From positions 5,106,501-5,170,500 of the forward strand of contig JAGUCH010000007.1 of NCBI GenBank assembly GCA_019096065.1: DNA of 64,000 nucleotides, written 5' to 3'. Shown piece by piece: positions 31,797-45,245 of the stretch. Under the pieces are notes generated by a model. It was given only the letters and a program-made list of their open reading frames with translations. It had not been told where the DNA came from and ran no database searches. The number at the start of each line of letters is the position of its first letter. Within the stretch, counting starts at the first letter, position 1. The position numbers and the translations under genes are program-made. The DNA is from Paracyclopina nana. Its lineage: Eukaryota > Arthropoda > Copepoda > Cyclopoida > Cyclopettidae.

Positions 31797-32772
31797 TGAT
31801 GAAGGTTTGTGGTTCAACAAAACTTCCTCAATCTCATGCAAAAAGTTCAGCAACAATAGCAATAAATGGTATCCGATTTCTCACGTTGTGAAGCAGCTGA
31901 CTTTTATGGCCACATAGCAAGGCGTTGAATTTCTAGCAAGATATTTGCAATTTTACAGCTTTAGCTGCAATTCCAGTCTCTTGCAGCGCAATTAGCTCAA
32001 CTTTTGATTGGATCTGACATCAAACTGCAATTAAAATATGAGGGAATGAAAAATGTAGGTCAAGTGACCCTTTCAGCAGTTTTACGCAATTTTTGCGTAC
32101 CCTCATTTTATCTTAGCTTGGGGCAGTTTTCAGAGGGGCAAAATATTTTCCTGCTGCTCCTGCGAACTACGAATTTGACGCCACACACGCAAGCTAGGTC
32201 TCGATATCAGCCATAAAGCAATTGCTACTAAAGCTAAAGGTTAGATGAATCACCACGAGTTCAGTCAATCGATTCTGAAATCAATTTGAAAAAATATTAC
32301 ACACAACTTTGCCTCGAGCAAATTCTTAAAAAAGGGCAGGACCACAAAATCGAACAAAACTGCTGTGTACATGTTTTCAATGCCAATTATGTATTGCGCA
32401 CTTTTTTCAATACGCTTCCATACATATGCAATGATCCAATTTTTGAGGGTTCAAGATCATTGATTTTTTGTTCAAGGCTCTTCAAATGAATTTGGATAAA
32501 TGTGCTGATACCTGTAGAATGATGATATATGCCCTTTTTTCATGCTCAACTTTGAGTGTAATAATTTTTAAGCATGCGCCAGAAGCGAAATTGCCAATTT
32601 GAGCAAGTTGCCAATTCAATGTGATAATAACTCTGACCAAAAAGGTTTAAAATGGGTCTACTTCATGTTTTTCACCTTGACAAGGCTACATTCATTCATG
32701 CCATTTTTCTGCTGAAATTTTACCTTTTATGGGTACTTAAAAAATAGGCTCATTACTGTGGCATGTGGGCCC
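31797..32772. other. 6PGD upstream flank
   Basis: Presumed 5' UTR and promoter of 6PGD at the left end, then AT-rich spacer with only short open frames. No other gene is supported. Confidence 0.4.
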
Positions 32773-32847
32773 ATTTTTGGGCTAAGACTGGATACCCAGC
32801 CAACAAATGCAAGCAAAACTTAAGCAACAGAGTGCAATGAGATCAAT

Positions 32848-35160
32848 GCGAACGTTGCGAGCATCGCGAACAATGTGAACATTGCGAACAATGCGAACAT
32901 TGCGAACAATGCGAACATTGCGAACAATGCGAACTTTGTGAACATTGCGAACAATGCGAACAATGCGAACATTGCGAACATTGCGAACAATGCGAACATT
33001 GCGAACAATGCGAACATTGCGAACAATGCGAACATTGCGAACAATGCGAACAATGCGAACATTGCGAACAATGCGAACATTGCGAACAATGCGAACAATG
33101 CGAACATTGCGAACAATGCGAACAATGCGAACAATGCGAACAATGCGAACAATGCGAACAATGCGAACATTGCGAACATTGCGAACAATGCGAACAATGC
33201 GAACAATGCGAACATTGTGAACAATGCGAACAATGCGAACATTGCAAACAATGCGAACATTGCAAACATTGCGATCATTGCGAACAATGCGAACAATGCG
33301 AACAATGCGAACAATGCGAACAATGCGAACAATGCGAACATTGCGAACAATGCGAACATTGCGAACAATGCGAACAATGCGAACAATGCAAACATTGCGA
33401 ACATTGCGAACAATGCAAACATAGCGAACAATGCGAACAATGCGAACATTGCGAACAATGCGAACAATGCGAACATTGCGAACAATGCGAACAATGCGAA
33501 CAATGCGAACAATGCGAACAATGCGAACAATGCGAACAATGCGAACAATGCGAACATTGCGAACAATGCGAACATTGCGAACAATGCGAACAATGCGAAC
33601 AATGCGAACATTGCGAACAATGCAAACTTTGTGAACATTGCGGACAATGCGAACATTGCGAACATTGCGAACAATGCGAACATTGCGAACAATGCGAACA
33701 ATGCGAACATTGCGAACATTGCGAACAATGCGAACATTGCGAACAATGCGAACAATGCGAACATTGCGAACAATGCGAACAATGCGAACAATGCGAACAA
33801 TGCGAACAATGCGAACAATGCGAACATTGCGAACATTGCGAACAATGCGAACAATGCGAACAATGCGAACATTGCGAACAATGCGAACAATGCGAACATT
33901 GCAAACAATGCGAACATTGCGAACATTGCGAACATTGCGAACAATGCGAACAATGCGAACAATGCGAACAATGCGAACAATGCGAACAATGCGAACATTG
34001 CGAACAATGCGAACATTGCGAACAATGCGAACAATGCGAACAATGCGAACATTGCGAACATTGCGAACATTGCGAACATTGCGAACAATGCGGACATTGC
34101 GAACAATGCGAACAATTTGAACATTGCGAACACTGCGAACATTGCGAACAATGCGAACAATGCGAACATTGCGAACATTGCGAACAATGCGAACATTGCG
34201 AACATTGCGAACATTGCGAACAATGCGAACAATGCGAACATTGCGAACAATGCGAACATTGCGAACATTGCGAACAATGCGAACAATGCGAACATTGCGA
34301 ACATTGCGAACAATGCGAACATTGCGAACATTGCGAACAATGCGAACATTGCGAACATTGCGAACATTGCGAAAAATGCAAACAATGCAAACATTGCGAA
34401 CAATGCGAACATTGCGAACATTGCGAACATTGCGAACTATGCGAACATTGCGAACATTGCGAACATTGCGAACAATGCGAACATTGTGAACATTGCGAAC
34501 AATGCGAACATTGCGAACATTGCGAACAATGCGAACAATGCGAACATTGCGAACAATGCGAACAATGCGAACATTGCGAACATTGCGAACAATGCGAACA
34601 TTGCGAACAATGCGAACAATGCGAACATTGCGAACAATGCGAACAATGCGAACAATGCGAACAATGCGAACATTGCGAACATTGCGAACATTGCGAACAT
34701 TGCGAACAATGCGAACAATGCGAACAATGCGAACATTGTGAACAATGCGAACAATGCGAACATTGCAAACAATGCGAACATTGCAAACATTGCGAACATT
34801 GCGATCAATGCGAACAATGCGAACAATGCGAACAATGCGAACATTGCGAACAATGCGAACATTGCGAACAATGCGAACATTGCGAACAATGCGAACAATG
34901 CGAACAATGCAAACATTGCGAACATTGCGAACATTGCGAACATTGCGAACAATGCGAACATTGCGAACAATGCGAACAATGCGAACATTGCGAACAATGC
35001 GAACAATGCGAACAATGCGAACAATGCGAACAATGCGAACATTGCAAACAATGCGAACAATGCGATCATTGCGAACATTGCGAACAATGCAAACAATGCG
35101 AACATTGCGAACAATGCGAACAATGCGAACATTGCGAACAATGCGAACATTGCGAACATT
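32848..35160. repeat. 9-bp satellite array, left arm (~2.3 kb)
   Basis: Two 9-mers, GCGAACAAT and GCGAACATT, alternate irregularly about 257 times. Point variants are rare (GTGAACATT, GCAAACAAT, GCGATCATT). The unit length is a multiple of three and no phase contains a stop, so all six frames are open. The resulting long predicted peptides are composition artefacts. Confidence 0.97.
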
Positions 35161-36215
35161 GGGGATATACTAAAATACGCAACATGCGCAATATGCGCAA
35201 TATACGCAATATGCGCAACAAACTGCTAAAATGCGCAACATGCGCAACTACTAAAATGCGCAACATGCGCAACTACTAAAATGCGCAACATGAACAATAT
35301 CCATGAATATATATATTTTAAAAACAAATACTTTCTGTACATCCTTTAAACTTGTGAAATACATTTTGCTGCTGGAATAAATAAATGGAATTAAAATCTT
35401 AGAACACCTTACATTTCACAGACTAAACTGCTGATTTATTATTGTTACTTATTTAAGGTTTATTGAAACTGTCCTTCATCTAAGGCACTTTTTAATACTA
35501 AAGCATTGGTTTTTTTTGTAATAATAGCATTTTAATGAGTCTTCCTTTAGCCAATTCATTTTTTGGCTGTTTTTGGATGAAAGTTGAAGCATGCTGAAAT
35601 GGGCAACATATGCAAAATCACATCTCTTTATTTATATTTCTCTGCTGTTTTCTTTAGCTTGAATTTCACATAAAATTCAAAAAGATTTTGACATTAACAT
35701 AAATGTCAGCTGTTTATTTTCATTTTGTCAAATATATTTCTTAGTAAGAATAAGACAATAAAAAAATCAGCTGCTTATTTACATTTTATCAATTACATTT
35801 TTTGGCAATAATAAGACTAATCACAAAAAAGTCAGCTGCTAACTTATATTTTATTAATTATAATTTTCAGCAAGAATGAGACTTGTAATCAAACTTTTGA
35901 AGAGAAGTTTTCCCATTTTAAAATCCTTGTTAAGCTATTTAATGACCCTACTTTTCATGCCCCAGCTCTAAAAAAATAACTTATTATTATTATTACACAT
36001 GTATTAGACTTTTTTTTATTATCTTGTAAGGCTGACATTTTAAATAAGCATGTATTAGAAAATGACTATAATTAGAAAATTAAACCAGTTGGTTTAAAAA
36101 AAAATCTGATACTATCACGGAAATTGTCCTTCTTGTACATTTTAGTAGTTGCGCATGTTGCGTATTTTAGTAGTTGCGCTTGTTGCGTATTTTAGTATAT
36201 CCCCGAACATTGCGA
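35161..36215. repeat. Left-arm stuffer of the foldback element
   Basis: AT-rich sequence matching 40025-41068 in inverted orientation almost base for base. It is bounded by ATGCGCAAC and CTACTAAAAT repeats. It contains a GAGCTGGGGCAT-type block (about 35876-35985) of the dispersed composite family. No gene. Confidence 0.85.
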
Positions 36216-36224
36216 ACAATGCTT

Positions 36225-38262
36225 TTTGCTAGTTTAATCTTGGTCATGAATTTCGAGTTTTATTAGCAGTAGAATTACCGCGCGATGCGCAAGTTTTCAC
36301 CCTTGCGAACTCAAAATGAGTCAAAAGTTTAACTTTGCCTCACAGTTTGAGTCAAGTTGACTCAAACTATCTGCTGCAACTGACATTTTGACTCAAATTC
36401 GACTTGGTCAAGAATTGCATGATTTATTAGCAGTTAAGTAGAAATACGGGGCAATGCGCTAGTTTTCACCCTTGCGAACTCAAAATGAGTCAAAAGTTTG
36501 ACTTTGCCTCACAGTTTGAGTCAAGTTGACTCAAACTATTTGCTGCAACTGACATTTTGACTCAAATTCGACTTGGTCAAGAATTTCATGTTTTATTAGC
36601 AGTTAAGTAGAAGTACCGCGCGATGCGCAAGTTTTCACCCTTGCGAACTCAAAATGAGTCAAAAGTTTGACTTTGCCTCACAGTTTGAGTCAACTTGACT
36701 CAAACTATTTGCTGCAACTGACATTTTGACTCAAATTCGACTTGGTCAAGAATTTCATGTTTTATTAGCAGTTAAGTAGAATTACCGCGCAATGCGCAAG
36801 TTTTCACCCTTGCGAACTCAAAATGAGTCAAAAGTTTGACTTTGCCTCACAGTTTGAGTCAAGTTGACTCAAACTATCTGCTGCAACTGACATTTTGACT
36901 CAAATTCGACTTGGTCAAGAATTTCATGTTTTATTAGCAGTTAAGTAGAAGTACCGCGCGATGCGCAAGTTTTCACCCTTGCGAACTCAAAATGAGTCAA
37001 AAGTTTGACTTTGCCTCACAGTTTGAGTCAACTTGACTCAAACTATTTGCTGCAACTGACATTTTGACTCAAATTCGACTTGGTCAAGAATTTCATGTTT
37101 TATTAGCAGTTAAGTAGAAATGCCGCATGATGCGCAAGTTTTCACCCTTGCGAACTCAAAATGAGTCAAAAGTTTAACTTTGCCTCACAGTTTGAGTCAA
37201 GTTGACTCAAACTATCTGCTGCAACTGACATTTTGACTCAAATTCGACTTGGTCAAGAATTTCATGTTTTATTAGCAGTTAAGTAGAAATACCGCGCAAT
37301 GCGCAAGTTTTCACCCTTGCGAACTCAAAATGAGTCAAAAGTTTGACTTTGCCTCACAGTTTGAGTCAAGTTGACTCAAACTATTTGCTGCAACTGACAT
37401 TTTGACTCAAATTCGACTTGGTCAAGAATTTCATGTTTTATTAGCAGTTAAGTAGAAGTACCGCGCGATGCGCAAGTTTTCACCCTTGCGAACTCAAAAT
37501 GAGTCAAAAGTTTGACTTTGCCTCACAGTTTGAGTCAACTTGACTCAAACTATTTGCTGCAACTGACATTTTGACTCAAATTCGACTTGGTCAAGAATTT
37601 CATGTTTTATTAGCAGTTAAGTAGAAATGCCGCATGATGCGCAAGTTTTCACCCTTGCGAACTCAAAATGAGTCAAAAGTTTAACTTTGCCTCACAGTTT
37701 GAGTCAAGTTGACTCAAACTATCTGCTGCAACTGACATTTTGACTCAAATTCGACTTGGTCAAGAATTTCATGTTTTATTCAGTTAAGTAGAAATACCGC
37801 GCAATGCGCAAGTTTTCACCCTTGCGAACTCAAAATGAGTCAAAAGTTTGACTTTGCCTCACAGTTTGAGTCAAGTTGACTCAAACTATTTGCTGCAACT
37901 GACATTTTGACTCAAATTCGACTTGGTCAAGAATTTCATGTTTTATTAGCAGTTAAGTCGAAGTACCGCGCACTGCGCAAGTTTTCACCCTTGCAAACTC
38001 AAAATGAGTCAAACGCTTGACTTTGCCTCACAGTTTAAGTCAACTTGACTCAAACTATTTGCTGCAACTGACATTTTGACTCAAATTCGACTTGGTCAAG
38101 AATTTCATGTTTTATTAGCAGTTAAGTAGAAGTACCGCGCAATGCGCAAGTTTTCACCCTTGCGAACTCAAAATGAGTCAAACATTTGACTTTGCCTCTT
38201 ATTTTGAGTTAAGTTGACTCAAACTGTCTGCTGCAACTGACATTTTGATTCATTAGCAGTTG
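36225..38262. repeat. 169-bp tandem repeat array, twelve units
   Basis: CTTGCGAACTC begins at 36302, 36471, 36640, 36809, 36978, 37147, 37316, 37485, 37654, 37821, 37990 and 38159. This is an exact 169-bp period apart from one 167-bp unit. Each unit contains four TGAGTCA/TGACTCA heptamers and the inverted repeat TTTGAGTCAAGTTGACTCAAA or its CAACTTG variant. Diagnostic differences show units 5-7 and 8-10 repeating as a trimer. Confidence 0.97.
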
Positions 38263-38667
38263 GTACAAATGCACACTTTTTATTGGGACAAAAGCACACT
38301 TATTATACAACCAAAGCTGTGGATCTTTGAAAGTTGCGACACTTATGTATCCCTAATTTAAGGGATTTTCCAAGAACAATTTCCATTCCGTTACAGCCCT
38401 AAGCGCTTCCATTTGGCTTGCTTATACAATCAAAATACAATCAAATATCCTTAAAAAAGCCAAACATAAGAATATGAATATTTTGGTTACTTTTGAAAAA
38501 CCTGAAATGGCTATGACAGAAACATTGAATCAAAGAAACTTTGTTTATATGATGGAAAGCAATTTTTGCATGTATAATTCAGTTTACCAATTCGTCTCAG
38601 TTCATATAACTACACATGCATAAAAGCTCTGACGTTTTACTTTATCAAGTGACACACATTATAAAGT
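38263..38667. other. Loop spacer of the foldback element
   Basis: AT-rich unique sequence between the 169-bp array and the 595-bp TIR element. No open frame or structure is supported. Confidence 0.5.
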
Positions 38668-39262
38668 ATTTTATATACTGTAATACGATTTCTTCGTGTT
38701 ATAATTCAGTTTACCGATCCAACTCAGCTCTTTTATATCCCAGTTCTTTCTAAGCAATTTGAGGGATATTAAATACTTAACGGCTCTGGAATCAAATTCG
38801 AGGGATTTTAAGTAGTTTAATGCCCCTCATATTCCATTGAACTAATCAACATTCCAAAGAAATTAGAAAAAAGAGAGAATTGTCCAAGATTTGAATCTCA
38901 GCCAGTTGGATCAGCATTCCAATACTCTAACCACTGAGCTATGGAAACACCATGAAATTGAAAGCTAAATATAGGACTTAAACATAATTAAGCCAGATAA
39001 AGAAACCAAAAAAATTTAGGAATGACTGGGGTATGAACCCTAGACAGAGGAATCAAGAGCCAAGTGCTCTGACCACTAGGCCATAGGTGCTACTCACAAA
39101 AATTGTATTTTTAAAGTTTCTTTTATTGCTCTCAATCCACTGGATGCTAGCTGATGAGAGCCAGTGTTACATAGCATAAAAACCGAGCAGCATTTTCTAG
39201 GGCACGGGGCAGCCCGGTAACTTCATTAAAACACTCAAAAATCGTATTACAGTATATAAAAT
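38668..39262 (-). mobile_element. 595-bp TIR element with two tRNA-like modules (copy in loop)
   Basis: The 24-bp inverted ends (38668-38691 and 39239-39262) contain TATACTGTAATACGATTT. On the minus strand it holds tRNA-like modules at about 39024-39093 (ACCACTAGGCCATAG and GTATGAACCC as complements of A and B boxes) and 38881-38946 (ACCACTGAGCTATGG, TTTGAATCTC). It is the same family as 42821-43422 in opposite orientation. Confidence 0.8.
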
Positions 39263-39286
39263 TGTATATTTTGAGCTGGGGCACGT

Positions 39287-39450
39287 AAAATTGTTCGCAT
39301 TGTTCGCAATGTTCGCAATGTTCGCATTGTTCGCAATGTTCACAATGTTCGCATTGTTCGCAATGTTCGCAATGTTCGCAATGTTCGCAATGTTCGCATA
39401 GTTCGCAATGTTCGCAATGTTCGCAATGTTCGCATTGTTCGCAATGTTTG
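39287..39450. repeat. Short 9-bp array inside the loop
   Basis: TTCGCATTG and TTCGCAATG units, about 18 copies, in right-arm orientation. It separates the loop element from three inverted 169-bp units. Confidence 0.95.
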
Positions 39451-39451
39451 C

Positions 39452-39990
39452 ATCTACTTAACTGCTAATAAAACATGAAATTCTTGACCAAGTCGAATTT
39501 GAGTCCAAATGTCAGTTGCAGCAGATAGTTTGAGTCAACTTGACTCAAACTGTGAGGCAAAGTCAAACTTTTGACTCATTTTGAGTTCGCAAGGGTGAAA
39601 ACTTGCGCATCGCGCGGTACTTCTACTTAACTGCTAATAAAACATGAAATTCTTGACCAAGTCGAATTTGAGTCAAAATGTCAGTTGCAGCAAATAGTTT
39701 GAGTCAACTTGACTCAAACTGTGAGGCAAAGTCAAACTTTTGACTCATTTTGAGTTCGCAAGGGTGAAAACTTGCGCATTGCGCGGTATTTCTACTTAAC
39801 TGCTAATAAAACATGAAATTCTTGACCAAGTCGAATTTGAGTCAAAATGTCAGTTGCAGCAGATAGTTTGAGTCAACTTGACTCAAACTGTGAGGCAAAG
39901 TTAAACTTTTGACTCATTTTGAGTTCGCAAGGGTGAAAACTTGCGCATCGCGCGGTAATTCTACTGCTAATAAAACTCGAAATTCATGAC
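39452..39990. repeat. 169-bp repeat, three units in inverted orientation
   Basis: Reverse complement of the left array's outermost units, with the same TGAGTCA/TGACTCA content. The junction to the stuffer (TAGCAAAAAGCATTGTTCGC) mirrors the left junction at about 36212. Confidence 0.95.
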
Positions 39991-40024
39991 CAAGATTAAA
40001 CTAGCAAAAAGCATTGTTCGCAAT

Positions 40025-41068
40025 GTTCGGGGATATACTAAAATACGCAACAAGCGCAACTACTAAAATACGCAACATGCGCAACTACTAAAATGTACAA
40101 GAAGGACAATTTCCGTGATAGTATCAGATTTTTTTTAAACCAACTGGTTTAATTTTCTAATTATAGTCATTTTCTAACACATGCTTATTTAAAATGTCAG
40201 CCTTACAAGAAAAAAAAAAGTCTAATACATGTGTAATAATAATAATAAGTTATTTTTTTAGAGCTGGGGCATGAAAAGTAGGGTCATTAAATAGCTTAAC
40301 AAGGATTTTAAAATGGGAAAACTTCTCTTCAAAAGTTTGATTACAAGTCTCATTCTTGCTGAAAATTATAATTAATAAAATATAAGTTAGCAGCTGACTT
40401 TTTTGTGATTAGTCTTATTATTGCCAAAAAATGTAATTGATAAAATGTAAATAAGCAGCTGATTTTTTTATTGTCTTATTCTTACTAAGAAATATATTTG
40501 ACAAAATGAAAATAAACAGCTGACATTTATGTTAATGTCAAAATCTTTTTGAATTTTATGTGAAATTCAAGCTAAAGAAAACAGCAGAGAAATATAAATA
40601 AAGAGATGTGATTTTGCATATGTTGCCCATTTCAGCATGCTTCAACTTTCATCCAAAAACAGCCAAAAAATGAATTGGCTAAAGGAAGACTCATTAAAAT
40701 GCTATTATTACAAAAAAAACCAATGCTTTAGTATTAAAAAGTGCCTTAGATGAAGGACAGTTTCAATAAACCTTAAATAAGTAACAATAATAAATCAGCA
40801 GTTTAGTCTGTGAAATGTAAGGTGTTCTAAGATTTTAATTCCATTTATTTATTCCAGCAGCAAAATGTATTTCACAAGTTTAAAGGATGTACAGAAAGTA
40901 TTTGTTTTTAAAATATATATATTCATGGATATTGTTCATGTTGCGCATTTTAGTAGTTGCGCATGTTGCGCATTTTAGTAGTTGCGCATGTTGCGCATTT
41001 TAGCAGTTTGTTGCGCATATTGCGTATATTGCGCATATTGCGCATGTTGCGTATTTTAGTATATCCCC
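40025..41068. repeat. Right-arm stuffer of the foldback element
   Basis: Inverted near-identical copy of 35161-36215, including the GAGCTGGGGCATG block at about 40261. No gene. Confidence 0.85.
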
Positions 41069-42370
41069 AATGTTCGCAATGTTCGCATTGTTCGCAATGT
41101 TCGCATTGTTCGCATTGTTCGCAATGTTCGCATTGTTTGCATTGTTCGCAATGTTCGCAATGATCGCATTGTTCGCATTGTTTGCAATGTTCGCATTGTT
41201 CGCATTGTTCGCATTGTTCGCATTGTTCGCATTGTTCGCAATGTTCGCATTGTTCGCATTGTTCGCAATGTTCGCATTGTTCGCAATGTTCGCAATGTTC
41301 GCAATGTTCGCAATGTTTGCATTGTTCGCATTGTTCGCATTGTTCGCAATGTTCGCATTGTTCGCAATGTTCGCATTGTTCGCAATGTTCGCATTGTTCG
41401 CATTGTTCGCATTGTTCGCATTGTTCGCAATGTTCGCAATGTTTGCAATGTTCGCATTGTTTGCAATGTTCGCATTGTTCGCATTGTTCACAATGTTCGC
41501 ATTGTTCGCATTGTTCGCATTGTTCGCAATGTTCGCAATGTTCGCAATGTTCGCAATGTTCGCATTGTTCGCATTGTTCGCATTGTTCGCATTGTTCGCA
41601 ATGTTCGCATTGTTCGCATTGTTCGCAATGTTCGCATTGTTCGCAATGTTCGCAATGTTCGCATTGTTCGCATTGTTCGCAATGTTCGCATTGTTCGCAT
41701 TGTTCGCAATGTTCGCAATGTTCGCATTGTTCGCAATGTTCACAATGTTCGCATTGTTCGCAATGTTCGCAATGTTCGCAATGTTCGCATAGTTCGCAAT
41801 GTTCGCAATGTTCGCAATGTTCGCATTGTTCGCAATGTTCGCATTGTTCGCAATGTTCGCATTGTTCGCAATGTTCGCAATGTTCGCATTGTTCGCAATG
41901 TTCGCAATGTTCGCAATGTTCGCATTGTTCGCAATGTTCACAATGTTCGCATTGTTCGCAATGTTCGCAATGTTCGCAATGTTCGCATTGTTTGCAATGT
42001 TCACAATGTTCGCATTGTTCGCAATGTTCGCAATGTTCGCATTGTTCGCATTGTTCGCAATGTTCGCAATGTTCGTATTGTTCGCAATGTTCGCATTGTT
42101 CGCATTGTTCGCAATGTTCGCAATGTTCGCAATGTTCGCAATGTTCGCATTGTTCGCAATGTTCGCAATGTTCGCATTGTTCGCATTGTTCGCAATGTTC
42201 GCAATGTTCGCAATGTTCAAATTGTTCGCATTGTTCGCAATGTTCGCATTGTTCGCAATGTTCGCAATGTTCGCAATGTTCGCATTGTTCGCATTGTTCG
42301 CATTGTTCGCGTTGTTCGCGTTGTTCGCATTGTTCGCAATGTTCGCAATGTTCGCATAGCTCGCAACGTT
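41069..42370. repeat. 9-bp satellite array, right arm (~1.3 kb)
   Basis: TTCGCAATG and TTCGCATTG units, the complement of the left array and about 1 kb shorter. All six frames are open for the same reason as in the left arm. Confidence 0.97.
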
Positions 42371-42614
42371 CACAGTGATCTCATTGTTCTCGGTTGCATA
42401 AGTTTTGCTTGCATTTGTTGGCTGGGTATCCAGTCTTAGCCCATTTTTGACCATTCGTACTCAACTATGCTCGGCCAAAAATGCATTAATTTCATTCTCG
42501 TTAGTAATGCAAAAGGCATCATGCTATACCGTTACATTTCTCTGTTTGTCAGTTTGAAATTAGCCAGGTGTGATAGAGCATGGATGCGATGTCATTGGAA
42601 AAATCCACAAAGTC

Positions 42615-43422
42615 CAATTTTTAGTTATTTATTTCGAGCTGGGGCACGTAAAGTAGGGTCATTAAATAGCTGAGCGAGGATTTTAAAATGGGAAAACTCG
42701 AGTACAGCTTTACTAGCCCAAGCCTGCGAGGGCTGTAATTGTACGAGTGTTTTTCCATTTTAAAATCCGAGGTCAGCTATTTAATGACCCAATTTTACGT
42801 GCCACAGCTCGGAATATACAATTTTATATTCTGTAATACGATTTTTGAGTGTTTTAATGAAGTTACCGGGCTGCCCCGTGCCCTAGAAAATACTGCTCGG
42901 TTTTTAGTTGCTATGTGAATATCACTGGCTCTCATTAGCTAGCATCCAGTGTTTTGGGAGCAATTAAATAGACTTTTAAAATCCATTTCTTCAGATGTGT
43001 GCCTATGGCACAATGGTTAGAGTGCTAGGCTCTTGATTCAGGAGTCTAGGGTTCAAACCCCACTCACTCCTTAACTTATTTTTTTTCTTTATCTGGCTTA
43101 AATTATGGTTAAAGTCCTATACATAGCATGCAATTTTCATCATGTTTCCATAGCTCAGTGGTTAGAGCTTTGGGAAGCAAATCCAACTGTCTGAGGTTCG
43201 AATCTTGGATGATCCTCTCTTTTTCCAACTTCTTTGGAATTTGGATTACATCCATTAATTATGAGGGCATTGAATTACTTAAAATCCCTCAAATTTGATT
43301 CAAGGGCTGTTAAGTATTTAATATCCCCCAAATTGCTTAGAAAGAACTGTGATATAAAAGAGCTGAGTCGGATCGGTAAACTGAATTATAACACGAGGAA
43401 ATCGTATTACAGTATATAAAAT
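42615..43422 (+). mobile_element. Composite repeat copy A: palindrome plus 602-bp TIR element
   Basis: 42624-42806 is an imperfect palindrome with arms of about 80 bp, starting GAGCTGGGGCACGTAAAG. It is followed by a TIR element, 42821-43422, with 24-bp inverted ends differing at one base. tRNA-like modules lie at 43000-43072 (GGCACAATGGTTAGAGTGC ... GGGTTCAAACCCC) and 43148-43216 (TAGCTCAGTGGTTAGAGC ... GAGGTTCGAATC). The whole block parallels 4670-5147 and, inverted, 38668-39290. Confidence 0.8.
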
Positions 43423-43955
43423 TACTTTAAGTCTAAGTTCAGGTGCACATTGTAGTAGATATTTTGGCAAAGTATTCATGTGAACAATGAATCATCATGG
43501 CTTCAAAAAATATTGAATTAGCTCAATCAATATGGAAAATTTGAAAGAAACTTAATTGATTTCCTTTCTTTTTCGAGTTATATTCACCCAAAATACATAC
43601 TGCAAATTATGTGGCAGGCGAACAAGCCTAATATCGCCAAGCAAAATGCATTTTCACGGAACCTTTCTTATTAGAGTCACGCAACCTTAGCTGCAAGCTA
43701 AATTTTTAAGATTTTGAGCAAATACCAGAAATATCTAGTTGAGAAACACGTGTATTTCATTTAATCAAGCATGATCTGGTCATATCACTTTACAAGACCA
43801 GGTTTTCATGTTCAAATGATGCATCTCTCATTTCATTCCTTGGCAGCATGCTAAAAAAGCCGACCAAAGTGGTTTTCATGATAGCAATTCCATACTTAAG
43901 AAGCAATGCTGCTGTGAGAGGCTAATATTCAGTTGGTCGAGCTCAGAGAGCAAAC
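43423..43955. other. Upstream flank of the peptide-precursor gene
   Basis: AT-rich spacer. A TCAGT initiator-like site occurs at 43930, 26 bp before the start codon. No clear TATA box is seen. Confidence 0.35.
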
Positions 43956-45245
43956 ATGAAGAACTTGGCTCTCATTATTGGATTCCTTGTAATTTGGACA
44001 AAAGTTGTGGTTGATGCTCAACCCGGACCACAAACATTGGAGGATGGTCTCACTCATGGAGTAAAGAGAGAGAGTCAAGACTATAGTGGGACTGAACTTG
44101 GCCATCATCATAGTCATGAAAGTAAAAGATCGGCTGAGCCTGAGCCAATCTTGAGGCTGCTTTTTGGAGGCCAATCCAACCAAATCAATCCAAATGGGCA
44201 TGGCTTCTCTGGGATCCCTCACACCTTTGATCACAGTGGTCATCATGGACATGGCGGAAAACGATCTGCAGATCCTGAGCCCATCATGAGACTCTTTGGA
44301 GGTGGTCGAAGCCAATTCCGCCCTAATAGCCCAATCTCATCTGGAATTCCTCACACCTTTGATCACAGTGGTCATCATGGACATGGTGGTAAGCGATCAG
44401 CAGAGCCTGAACCTATCTTGAGGCTGTTATTTGGAGGCCAATCCAACCAAATCAATCCAAACGGGCATGGCTTCTCTGGAATCCCTCATACTTTTGACCA
44501 TGGTGGTCACCATGGACATGGAGGGAAGAGATCTGCAGAGCCTGAGCCCATCATGAGACTTTTTGGAGGTGGTCGAAGCCAATTCCGCCCTAATAGCCCA
44601 ATCTCCTCTGAAATTCCTCACACCTTTGATCACAGTGGTCATCATGGCCATGGCGGCAAGAGATCTGCAGAGCCTGAGCCCATCATGAGACTTTTTGGAG
44701 GTGGTCGAAGCCAATTCCGCCCTTATAGCCCAATCTCCTCTGGAATTCCTCACACCTTTGATCACAGTGGTCATCATGGCCATGGCGGCAAGAGATCTGC
44801 AGAGCCTGAGCCCATCATGAGACTTTTTGGAGGTGGTCGAAGCCAATTCCGCCCTAATAGCCCAATCTCCTCTGGAATTCCTCACACCTTTGATCACAGT
44901 GGTCATCATGGACATGGTGGTAAGCGATCAGCAGAGCCTGAACCTATCTTGAGGTTGTTGTTTGGAGGCCAAGGAAATCAAATTAATCCAATTGGGCATG
45001 GCTTCTCTGAAATCCCTCATACTTTTGACCATGGTGGACATCATGGCCATGGTGGTAAGAGATCAGTGGAACCAAATGTCCAAAATTACTACGACAATCC
45101 TGTGGAAGCTGGACTCACAGAAATCAGCGATGGGCAACTTAATACAGAGTCCGAACATGTAGGATTTATGGTTATGAGATCAGCTGAACCTTTGATTGAT
45201 GATTCAGAATTTGAATTCTACGGACATCATGGCCAGTTGGGTTAA
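43956..45245 (+). CDS. Secreted multicopy peptide precursor (KR-processed, His/Gly-rich)
   Basis: A single uninterrupted 429-residue frame. An N-terminal signal peptide (LALIIGFLVIWTKVVVDA) is followed by seven tandem units of about 37-45 residues. Each starts SA[ED]PEPI and ends HHGHGGKR. Two unit types alternate. Type A (ILRLLFGGQSNQINPNGHG) is units 1, 3 and 7. Type B (IMRLFGGGRSQFRPNSPIS) is units 2, 4, 5 and 6. The KR pairs are furin/prohormone convertase sites, and the preceding Gly would allow C-terminal amidation. The layout is that of a neuropeptide or antimicrobial-peptide precursor. I know no named family. His-Gly richness also allows a metal-binding or matrix role. AATAAA lies about 100 bp downstream. 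Confidence 0.85.
   Translation: MKNLALIIGFLVIWTKVVVDAQPGPQTLEDGLTHGVKRESQDYSGTELGHHHSHESKRSAEPEPILRLLFGGQSNQINPNGHGFSGIPHTFDHSGHHGHGGKRSADPEPIMRLFGGGRSQFRPNSPISSGIPHTFDHSGHHGHGGKRSAEPEPILRLLFGGQSNQINPNGHGFSGIPHTFDHGGHHGHGGKRSAEPEPIMRLFGGGRSQFRPNSPISSEIPHTFDHSGHHGHGGKRSAEPEPIMRLFGGGRSQFRPYSPISSGIPHTFDHSGHHGHGGKRSAEPEPIMRLFGGGRSQFRPNSPISSGIPHTFDHSGHHGHGGKRSAEPEPILRLLFGGQGNQINPIGHGFSEIPHTFDHGGHHGHGGKRSVEPNVQNYYDNPVEAGLTEISDGQLNTESEHVGFMVMRSAEPLIDDSEFEFYGHHGQLG

Follow-up and report, generated by a model that had tools for sequence, protein, structure and literature searches.

Structure of the locus

Within the window, the whole stretch of 64,000 nucleotides of Paracyclopina nana DNA that we analysed, lies an element of 9,662 bp (32780–42441) flanked by two unstranded copies of the 8-bp direct repeat CATTTTTG, at 32772–32779 and 42442–42449, which match exactly at length 8 only. 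The first-pass annotation had recognised a 9.66-kb unit, and this stands, but the direct repeat that it reported as 6 bp long has a length of 8 bp. As CATTTTTG begins with C and ends with G, the inverted end had appeared longer and its boundary one base off in that first reading. The inverted ends themselves, starting (G)GGCTAAGACTGGATACCCAGCC, were rightly seen: their first 43 bp are identical and the next 17 positions differ at 4, so that two end types can be told apart, B on the left and A on the right. Over a 60-bp end, the B-type terminus (GGCTAAGACTGGATACCCAGCC...AACAGAGTGCAAT; 32780–32834, plus strand) is 100% identical to the satellite-side ends of three other genomic copies, C3a, C3b and C5; the A-type terminus (42390–42441, minus strand) has the AACCGAGAACAATGAGATCACTG form. 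Folded as single-stranded DNA, the terminus shows nothing special (z = −0.27).

Inwards from the left end, the plus strand carries the 9-bp array of the B arm (GAACATTGC/GAACAATGC; 32835–35161, TRF 32835–35158), with approximately 258 units and autocorrelations of 0.91–0.92 at lags 9, 18 and 27; a "stuffer" (35162–36203), itself a separate inverted-repeat insertion within the 9-bp array with perfect 23-bp ends (GGGATATACTAAAATACGCAACA); an array of 11.9 units of a 169-bp satellite (36239–38252); and a loop of 1,039 bp (38253–39291) that is common to other copies. The loop holds a small, MITE-like inverted-repeat element (38661–39269, unstranded), the arms of which (38661–38711 and 39219–39269) are 82% complementary; an 86% copy of this small element is found at 42792–43429, just beyond the window element. 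On the minus strand then follow an inner remnant of the A-arm 9-bp array (39292–39452), interrupted at 39452/39453; a secondary tract (39453–41839) that is an inverted copy of 34390–36780, with satellite units, stuffer and inner 9-mers; and, beyond the copied tract, the outer A-arm 9-bp array (41840–42389). On both arms, the 9-bp array, the ~1.05-kb stuffer and the 169-bp array follow one another in the mirrored order noticed in the first reading; the smaller TIR element in the loop is confirmed, and the reported inequality of the arms (2.3 versus 1.3 kb of 9-mers and 12 versus 3 long units) agrees with our measurements of 2,324 bp on the B arm versus 1,322 bp on the A arm and of 11.9 versus 3.2 units. 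The best match between the two arms is 97.7% over 2,941 columns. Open reading frames of at least 80 aa within the element are translations of repeats, consistent with the earlier statement that it contains no transposase.

A dispersed family with target duplications

Searched with up to three mismatches, a 34-position terminus pattern gave 36 matches genome-wide, and its reversed control gave none. The genome contains 23 opposite-facing terminus pairs; among the 18 whose flanks were read, 15 have exact 8-bp duplications, one has 7 of 8 bp matching and two have no duplication at all. None is exact at 6 bp, and a duplication of that length is ruled out. A second copy with the same ends had been made the test of the claim that the whole unit transposes; the search found these ends again elsewhere, in different flanks and with target duplications of their own, and the claim holds. 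The copies make up a family that is present at many sites and shares its ends (GGCTAAGACTGG...), inverted arms of 9-bp repeats and 8-bp target duplications. Between the loop of the window copy and those of other copies there are seven matches of 256–1,039 bp at 98.1–99.6% and one 85-bp match at 89%; near-identical loops among copies suggest recent movement, and gene conversion could be an alternative source of the high identity.

Copies C3a, C3b and C5, the last of them rearranged, run from the A-end through a 9-bp array, the 1-kb loop and the 169-bp satellite array to a second 9-bp array and the B-end: the inversion is confined to the ends of about 50 bp and the 9-bp arrays, the 169-bp array is one-sided, and the stuffer is missing from the corresponding junction. 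C7b departs from this common order, with a partial loop and a short satellite stretch in the opposite orientation, and the lengths of the 9-bp arrays differ among copies. Two copies of 40 kb were considered as autonomous relatives and rejected, as their extra 30–33 kb consists of nested elements with their own borders. Maverick/Polinton elements have ends starting with AG and 6-bp duplications; the window element was also tried as one of these and rejected, its own ends being GGC and its duplication 8 bp, and the AGT ends and 6-bp duplication belonging to a separate element merely nested in C3b.

Related terminus subfamilies were found in the genome, with terminus pairs of G4 at C2:1034137–1043068 and of G5 at C8:17430–20493 and C8:134679–137742 (3,064 bp each) and at C4:9101490–9136689. 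Beside G1, the two other subfamilies whose arms were read (G2 and G3) have inverted arms with a 9- or 18-bp period, other arm sequences and 8-bp duplications; in G2, the autocorrelation is weak at lag 9 (0.52–0.53) versus 0.83 at lag 18. Arms are about 0.3–2.3 kb long in G1, and 1.3–1.5 kb where G2 and G3 copies were read completely. The 169-bp satellite occurs in at least one copy of each of G2 and G3, and hence in three subfamilies altogether. Two traits of foldback elements are found here: long inverted repeats of variable length, made of short tandem repeats, and target duplications at several sites. That the 9- or 18-bp period is kept despite changing sequence in three subfamilies suggests that the arms may be a selected binding array. 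A broader reading, which we consider rather unlikely, would have Foldback-like elements of five or more terminus subfamilies served by an unrecognised transposase, with drifting 9-bp-periodic arm arrays as a strip of binding sites; the elements would be the main vehicle spreading and seeding the 169-bp satellite, and array-to-array copying within copies would create palindromes and inversions.

Origin of the palindrome

The mirror-image shape of the window copy looks like a later rearrangement and not like the design of the family. Identity between the tract 34390–36780 and its inverted copy is 99.4% and falls to 90.4% outside it; the differing columns between the arms number 14 (of 2,391) within it versus 53 in 33849–34389, and the stuffer copies differ by one substitution and four gap bases. 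The array part of the tract (query 41068–41860) is 99.4% identical to the window B array; to the arrays of other copies its identity is 92.9–94.5% over 640–793 bp, with one 157-bp fragment at 98.1%. The outer A array (query 41861–42389) is 92.1–93.9% identical to all arrays over 520–529 bp, and the window B array is not favoured. Judged by these alignments, a B-arm segment of about 2.4 kb (34390–36780) appears to have been copied, inverted, into the A arm, and the stuffer reads as a separate insertion carried along in the copied tract. As for the putative mechanism, the inverted 9-mers supply homology, so that the two arms could pair: the A side of a break would pair with the B array and use it as template for 2.4 kb, across 9-mers, the stuffer and some three satellite units. 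At 39452/39453 the copied end would then be joined to what was left of the A array, on the basis of little homology or none. The first-pass annotation had attributed the asymmetry of the arms to unequal exchange; array lengths do vary, but one inverted copying tract would explain the asymmetry better than exchange alone.

It is highly improbable that the whole palindromic unit is the transposing design, an undescribed family distinguished by palindromic satellite arms and duplications of 6 bp: while the mirrored order and the inverted ends are real, the mirrored satellite and stuffer, once proposed as a hallmark of the family, are absent from C3a, C3b and C5, and of the 18 terminus pairs read, 15 are exact at 8 bp and none at 6. 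An artefact of assembly or library preparation, such as a fold-back chimeric read over a real asymmetric element, would account for a tract 99.4% alike over 2.4 kb, and near-identical inverted repeats do assemble poorly; we nevertheless regard it as improbable, as the tract is imperfect, the differences within the stuffer being among its 14 differing columns, and as the same 8-bp duplication flanks two ends that differ in type, so that both ends are real.

The transposase and the superfamily

No transposase-like frame was seen in the whole G2/G3 copies L048 and L047, nor in 7,300 and 10,000 bases within the larger G3 copies L049 and L050, the frames of L050 being assessed by eye; 10 selected short non-repeat frames of L047–L049 had no Pfam match above the cut-off, two matches being weak (E 0.01–0.03). 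Genome-wide, there were no candidates for the Merlin transposase (DDE_Tnp_IS1595, PF12762), for which the control matched in 1 of 14 genomes, and no matches to the hAT (PF05699) or KDZ (Zisupton group; PF18758) transposases, for which the control genomes likewise gave none. Domains of MULE transposases were matched at five places in the genome and P-type RNase-H domains at 11, P-type copies at C1:7813061 and C5:1232660 among them, three of the latter spanning the whole domain with one internal stop each; none of either kind lies inside the 23 terminus pairs.

Mutator (MULE) elements duplicate 8–11 bp of target, usually 9, and P elements usually 8 bp. The 8-bp duplication observed here falls in the MULE range, off its usual value, and within the 7–8 bp of the P superfamily; with GGC ends, the family also has the 5'-GG ends and 8–9-bp duplications of Merlin. 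Assignment to Mutator, as for Tm1 and, on its authors' suggestion, Tetris, is tentative at best: tandem-repeat-armed Foldback elements with 8–10-bp duplications have been placed there (PMC3169594, PMC4079207), and the domain is present in the genome, but always outside the pairs, and the duplication is one base short of the usual. The P superfamily, to which Galileo with its 7-bp duplications belongs (PMC3573991), is a possible yet doubtful home; the duplication length fits and P-type domains exist in the genome, but these, too, lie away from any pair.

Discussion

Overall, we read the window element, with a probability of about 0.87, as a non-autonomous Foldback-type DNA transposon that is moved in trans and whose window copy was made palindromic by arm-to-arm copying. 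A transposase encoded elsewhere in the genome would bind the ends and probably also putative extra binding sites that recur along the 9-bp arrays; in the cut-and-paste movement that would follow, the 169-bp satellite array and nested elements would travel as passengers. Repeated arm sites serving as extra transposase-binding sites have a precedent (PMC4079207), and recruited internal sequence is described as lengthening the inverted repeats of Galileo copies (PMC3573991). We infer that the family consists of non-coding mobile elements bearing satellite blocks to new genomic places.

The placement of the element nearest to Foldback/Galileo-type architecture is upheld, the closest known systems being Tm1, Tetris and Galileo. 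Tm1 of Meloidogyne (Mutator/Foldback; PMC3169594) is likewise a low-copy Foldback-like family with non-autonomous members, nested insertions and composite inverted ends, in which short terminal motifs are joined to short tandem repeats that vary in number; its repeats, however, are of ~14 bp and not 9 bp, its duplications mostly 9 bp (8–10) instead of 8 bp and its end motifs, asymmetric and 7 bp long, different from ours. One Tm1 copy has a Phantom-type transposase, whereas no copy with a transposase was found in the window family, and the satellite arrays in the body set the latter apart from Tm1 as there described (PMC3169594). Tetris of Drosophila virilis, for which the authors proposed membership of Mutator (MULE), is a Foldback element with tandem repeats within its inverted ends and 8–10-bp duplications, is described as having no conserved frames and is closely linked to a satellite (PMC4079207); its repeats of ~220 bp lie inside both inverted ends, while in the window family the 169-bp satellite is one-sided and adjoins a separate 9-bp-repeat arm, in copies of three subfamilies. 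Galileo of Drosophila (P superfamily) shares long inverted ends with internal repeats and chimeric copies without matching duplications, and its "recombinant TIR" copies, the inverted repeat of which is extended by recruited internal sequence, resemble the window copy; it differs in its duplication length, in the ~210-bp arm repeats of one of its subfamilies and in the existence of copies with (mostly defective) transposase sequence, on the account of PMC3573991. Merlin elements have a conserved terminal 5'-GG, 8- or 9-bp duplications and, in some families, internal tandem repeats (PMC8101967), but the Merlin transposase domain has no match in this genome. The first reading had suggested that the family may be undescribed: no description of a family with these ends and arms was found in the open-access Foldback literature, and to that extent the claim stands, but palindromic arms and a 6-bp duplication are not its marks.

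The satellite lies inside the body of a transposon, in copies with exact target duplications and with loops that are mostly 98–99.6% alike; with such satellite-bearing copies in one genome, the spread of satellites by transposons is testable there. The window copy, in turn, captures an apparent event of arm-to-arm copying, a step that could turn Foldback elements palindromic and unstable.

Termini and target duplications

Comparison of copies gives the element's terminus as GGCTAAGACTGG; the window copy, a member of a Foldback-type family, therefore spans 32780-42441, and its direct repeat is CATTTTTG, 8 bp long, not the 6-bp repeat read from its flanks in the first-pass annotation. Of its two terminus types, the B-end lies at left and the A-end at right. 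Much of the anatomy described earlier is confirmed: both arms carry 9-bp arrays (2,324 bp left versus 1,322 bp right), the 169-bp repeat (11.9 versus 3.2 units) and a segment of ~1.05 kb, the stuffer, and the element holds no transposase, its open reading frames of at least 80 aa being translations of repeats. The window's sole Rfam match at the gathering threshold is a weak tRNA-like one, at 38885-38941 on the minus strand (30.2 bits; cut-off 29), inside the loop's small element. At 43926-45242 on the plus strand lies an open frame whose product looks secreted; its coding sequence includes a tandem repeat of 132 bp, and with its repeated dibasic sites (GKRSAEPEPI...) the protein looks like a peptide precursor.

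The genome of Paracyclopina nana (92 Mb, 10 contigs; the window is G000:C7:5106501-5170500) contains many such ends. A 34-position terminus pattern matched at 36 places versus 0 for the reversed control, and a looser 22-position pattern at 221 versus 28; because the control gave 28 matches, the two-mismatch matches of the looser pattern are partly due to chance. For pairing we used its matches with zero or one mismatch, plus the end at C2:15011389, taken from the 34-position pattern, where it has one mismatch. Like termini facing opposite ways, at most ~40 kb apart, form at least 23 pairs. Flanks were examined in 18 of the 23: exact 8-bp repeats were present in 15 (7/8 pairs in one batch and 8/10 in the other), a repeat matching at 7/8 positions in one, and none in two. 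The duplications vary between sites (CATTTTTG, CAGAATGG, AAAACTTG, CACTTTTT, CAACTGTT, TATTTTCA, CAGTATTG and others), and further copies with the same ends and their own duplications, as anticipated from the window alone, are indeed found by the genome search.

Other copies and the order of the family

The other copies, named by contig, are C3a (C3:3943655-3983695), C3b (C3:4087042-4126890), the rearranged C5 (ends at C5:7206039 and 7226926), C7b (C7:5516251-5521420; 5,170 bp) and the one-ended C3c (C3:747275); shorter remnants of the family were also read. C3a, C3b and C5 share the order A-end, 9-bp array, 1,039-bp loop, 169-bp array, ~35 bp, 9-bp array, B-end, the 169-bp array having 24.8 units in C3a and 37.9 in C3b. 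The same order is seen in C3c within the stretch fetched, with part of the loop missing and the far end not found, and C7b departs from it in its partial loop and in its 169-bp stretch, which is short and oppositely oriented. The two halves of C5 (G000:C5:7203011-7227736; L038-L040), mutually inverted, ~21 kb apart and seemingly one element, have the octamer AAACTTCA in common in inverted orientation, and a 394-bp flank near them is duplicated at 99.5%; the locus seems to be a rearrangement involving the element. C3b sits inside another satellite array of the 169-bp type (near C3 4087000 and 4126890; L032 655-1041 and L036 891-1338), and outward of this host array lie 158-bp and 110/140-bp arrays.

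Autonomy of the 40-kb copies C3a and C3b was considered and rejected, their extra length consisting of nested elements. In C3a, an insertion of 32.6 kb (C3:3945511-3978108; L027-L030) splits the loop at positions 492-496, starts with TG and has a border repeat of 4 or 5 bp. Six of its frames were searched in Pfam (two in L027, one in L028, one in L029 and two in L030): that of L028 has integrase domains over the Pfam cut-off, one of L027 and that of L029 resemble protease, RNase H or integrase at scores under it, and the other three have no Pfam match; the insertion looks like LTR retroelements nested in one another. In C3b, an element of 30.5 kb (C3:4089077-4119610; L032-L035) lies between loop and satellite, with 20-bp ends (AGTAGTATGTAGGGGGAGCC) and a 6-bp duplication (TGCATT). 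Eight of its frames were searched: seven had no match, and one encodes a DNA polymerase domain of type B (PF03175, 2.3e-16). From its ends, duplication and polymerase we take it to be of the Maverick/Polinton type.

Origin of the palindrome

Palindromic arms, at first thought to be the design of the family, did not prove to be so: C3a, C3b and C5 are asymmetric, and the window copy has a tract copied from arm to arm. In the alignment of its arms, 53 of 550 columns differ over 33849-34389 (90.4% alike, near the level seen between arrays of different copies) and 14 of 2,391 over 34390-36780 (99.4% alike). The inner right array (query 41068-41860) matches the left array of its own copy at 99.4%; against other copies' arrays, identity is 92.9-94.5% in matches of 640-793 bp, with a 157-bp fragment at 98.1%. 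For the outer right array (query 41861-42389), identity to every array is 92.1-93.9% in matches of 520-529 bp, with a 165-bp fragment at 94.5%. The 99.4% identity of the tract and the inner array's fit to the left array of its own copy therefore indicate that the A arm received, at 39453-41839, an inverted copy of ~2.4 kb of B-arm sequence. Read from its sequence, the palindrome of the window copy is secondary. At 39452/39453 the A array stops and a satellite unit starts with an overlap of ~1 base, and this end of the tract was therefore joined almost without homology; we infer that one side invaded through pairing of inverted 9-mers and that end joining then closed the other, a route that would fit the sequence. 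An account of Galileo (PMC3573991) describes arms extended by recruited internal sequence, a likeness to the lengthening by the tract here.

The stuffer (35162-36203), an inverted-repeat element whose 23-bp ends (GGGATATACTAAAATACGCAACA) are perfect, lies within the 9-bp array, and no such element occupies the same junction in C3a, C3b or C5; the length of its duplication is unreadable, because a duplication of 9 bp would look like one more unit of the array. The right-arm copy differs from the left by one substitution and four gap bases, and was copied there together with the tract.

Subfamilies and the 169-bp satellite

Our grouping by terminus gives subfamily G1, that of the window copy, and the related G2-G5, with G4 and G5 placed by their shared terminus. 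A G2 copy (L048; terminus GGCTAAGACTGCACAGCC...) and a G3 copy (L047; terminus GGCAAAGTCTGCAGAGCC...), both read whole, have 8-bp duplications, and their arms, 1.3-1.5 kb long, are inverted. The arm repeats differ (GAACATTGC in G1, TGTGCACAACGCGATCAT in G2, TGTGAACAG in G3), and autocorrelation peaks at lags 9, 18 and 27 in G1 (0.88-0.93), at lag 18 in G2 (0.83; only 0.52-0.53 at lag 9) and at lags 9 and 18 in G3 (0.61-0.65). The 169-bp satellite has six matches in L048 (best 87%) and eight in L050, a stretch of another G3 copy (best 86%), with no match in the G3 stretches L047 and L049. Genome-wide it has at least 290 matches, many at 84-88% outside the copies already described; among the matches listed, facing arrays a few kb apart occur on C1, C8 and C9. 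At 1735-8975 of L050, whose G3 copy is 14.5 kb long (C2:7810303-7824813), long inverted 133-bp arrays flank 160-bp and 175-bp arrays, the 175-bp array being related to the satellite.

Classification and spread

MULE domains occur at five places in the genome and P-type RNase H gives 11 matches, none of them inside the 23 terminus pairs and the nearest more than 600 kb off. Genome-wide searches returned no Merlin, hAT or KDZ transposase, and for the latter two no control genome gave a match either. Merlin has GG ends and 8- or 9-bp duplications (PMC8101967), and those of the family would fit; the family differs in that no Merlin transposase was seen in this genome. P and MULE both remain superfamily candidates. 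Because no Merlin transposase was seen, and the P and MULE matches lie outside all 23 pairs, we leave the superfamily unassigned and call the family Foldback-like. Among the open-access papers on Foldback elements and Polintons that were screened by title and opening of the abstract, we saw no description of it, the closest published cases found being Tm1 and Tetris (PMC3169594 and PMC4079207). To judge from its sequences, the family works like a Foldback element, and the identity of the loops, which match between the window copy and other copies at 98.1-99.6% except for 85 bp in C7b (89%), suggests that it has spread recently.
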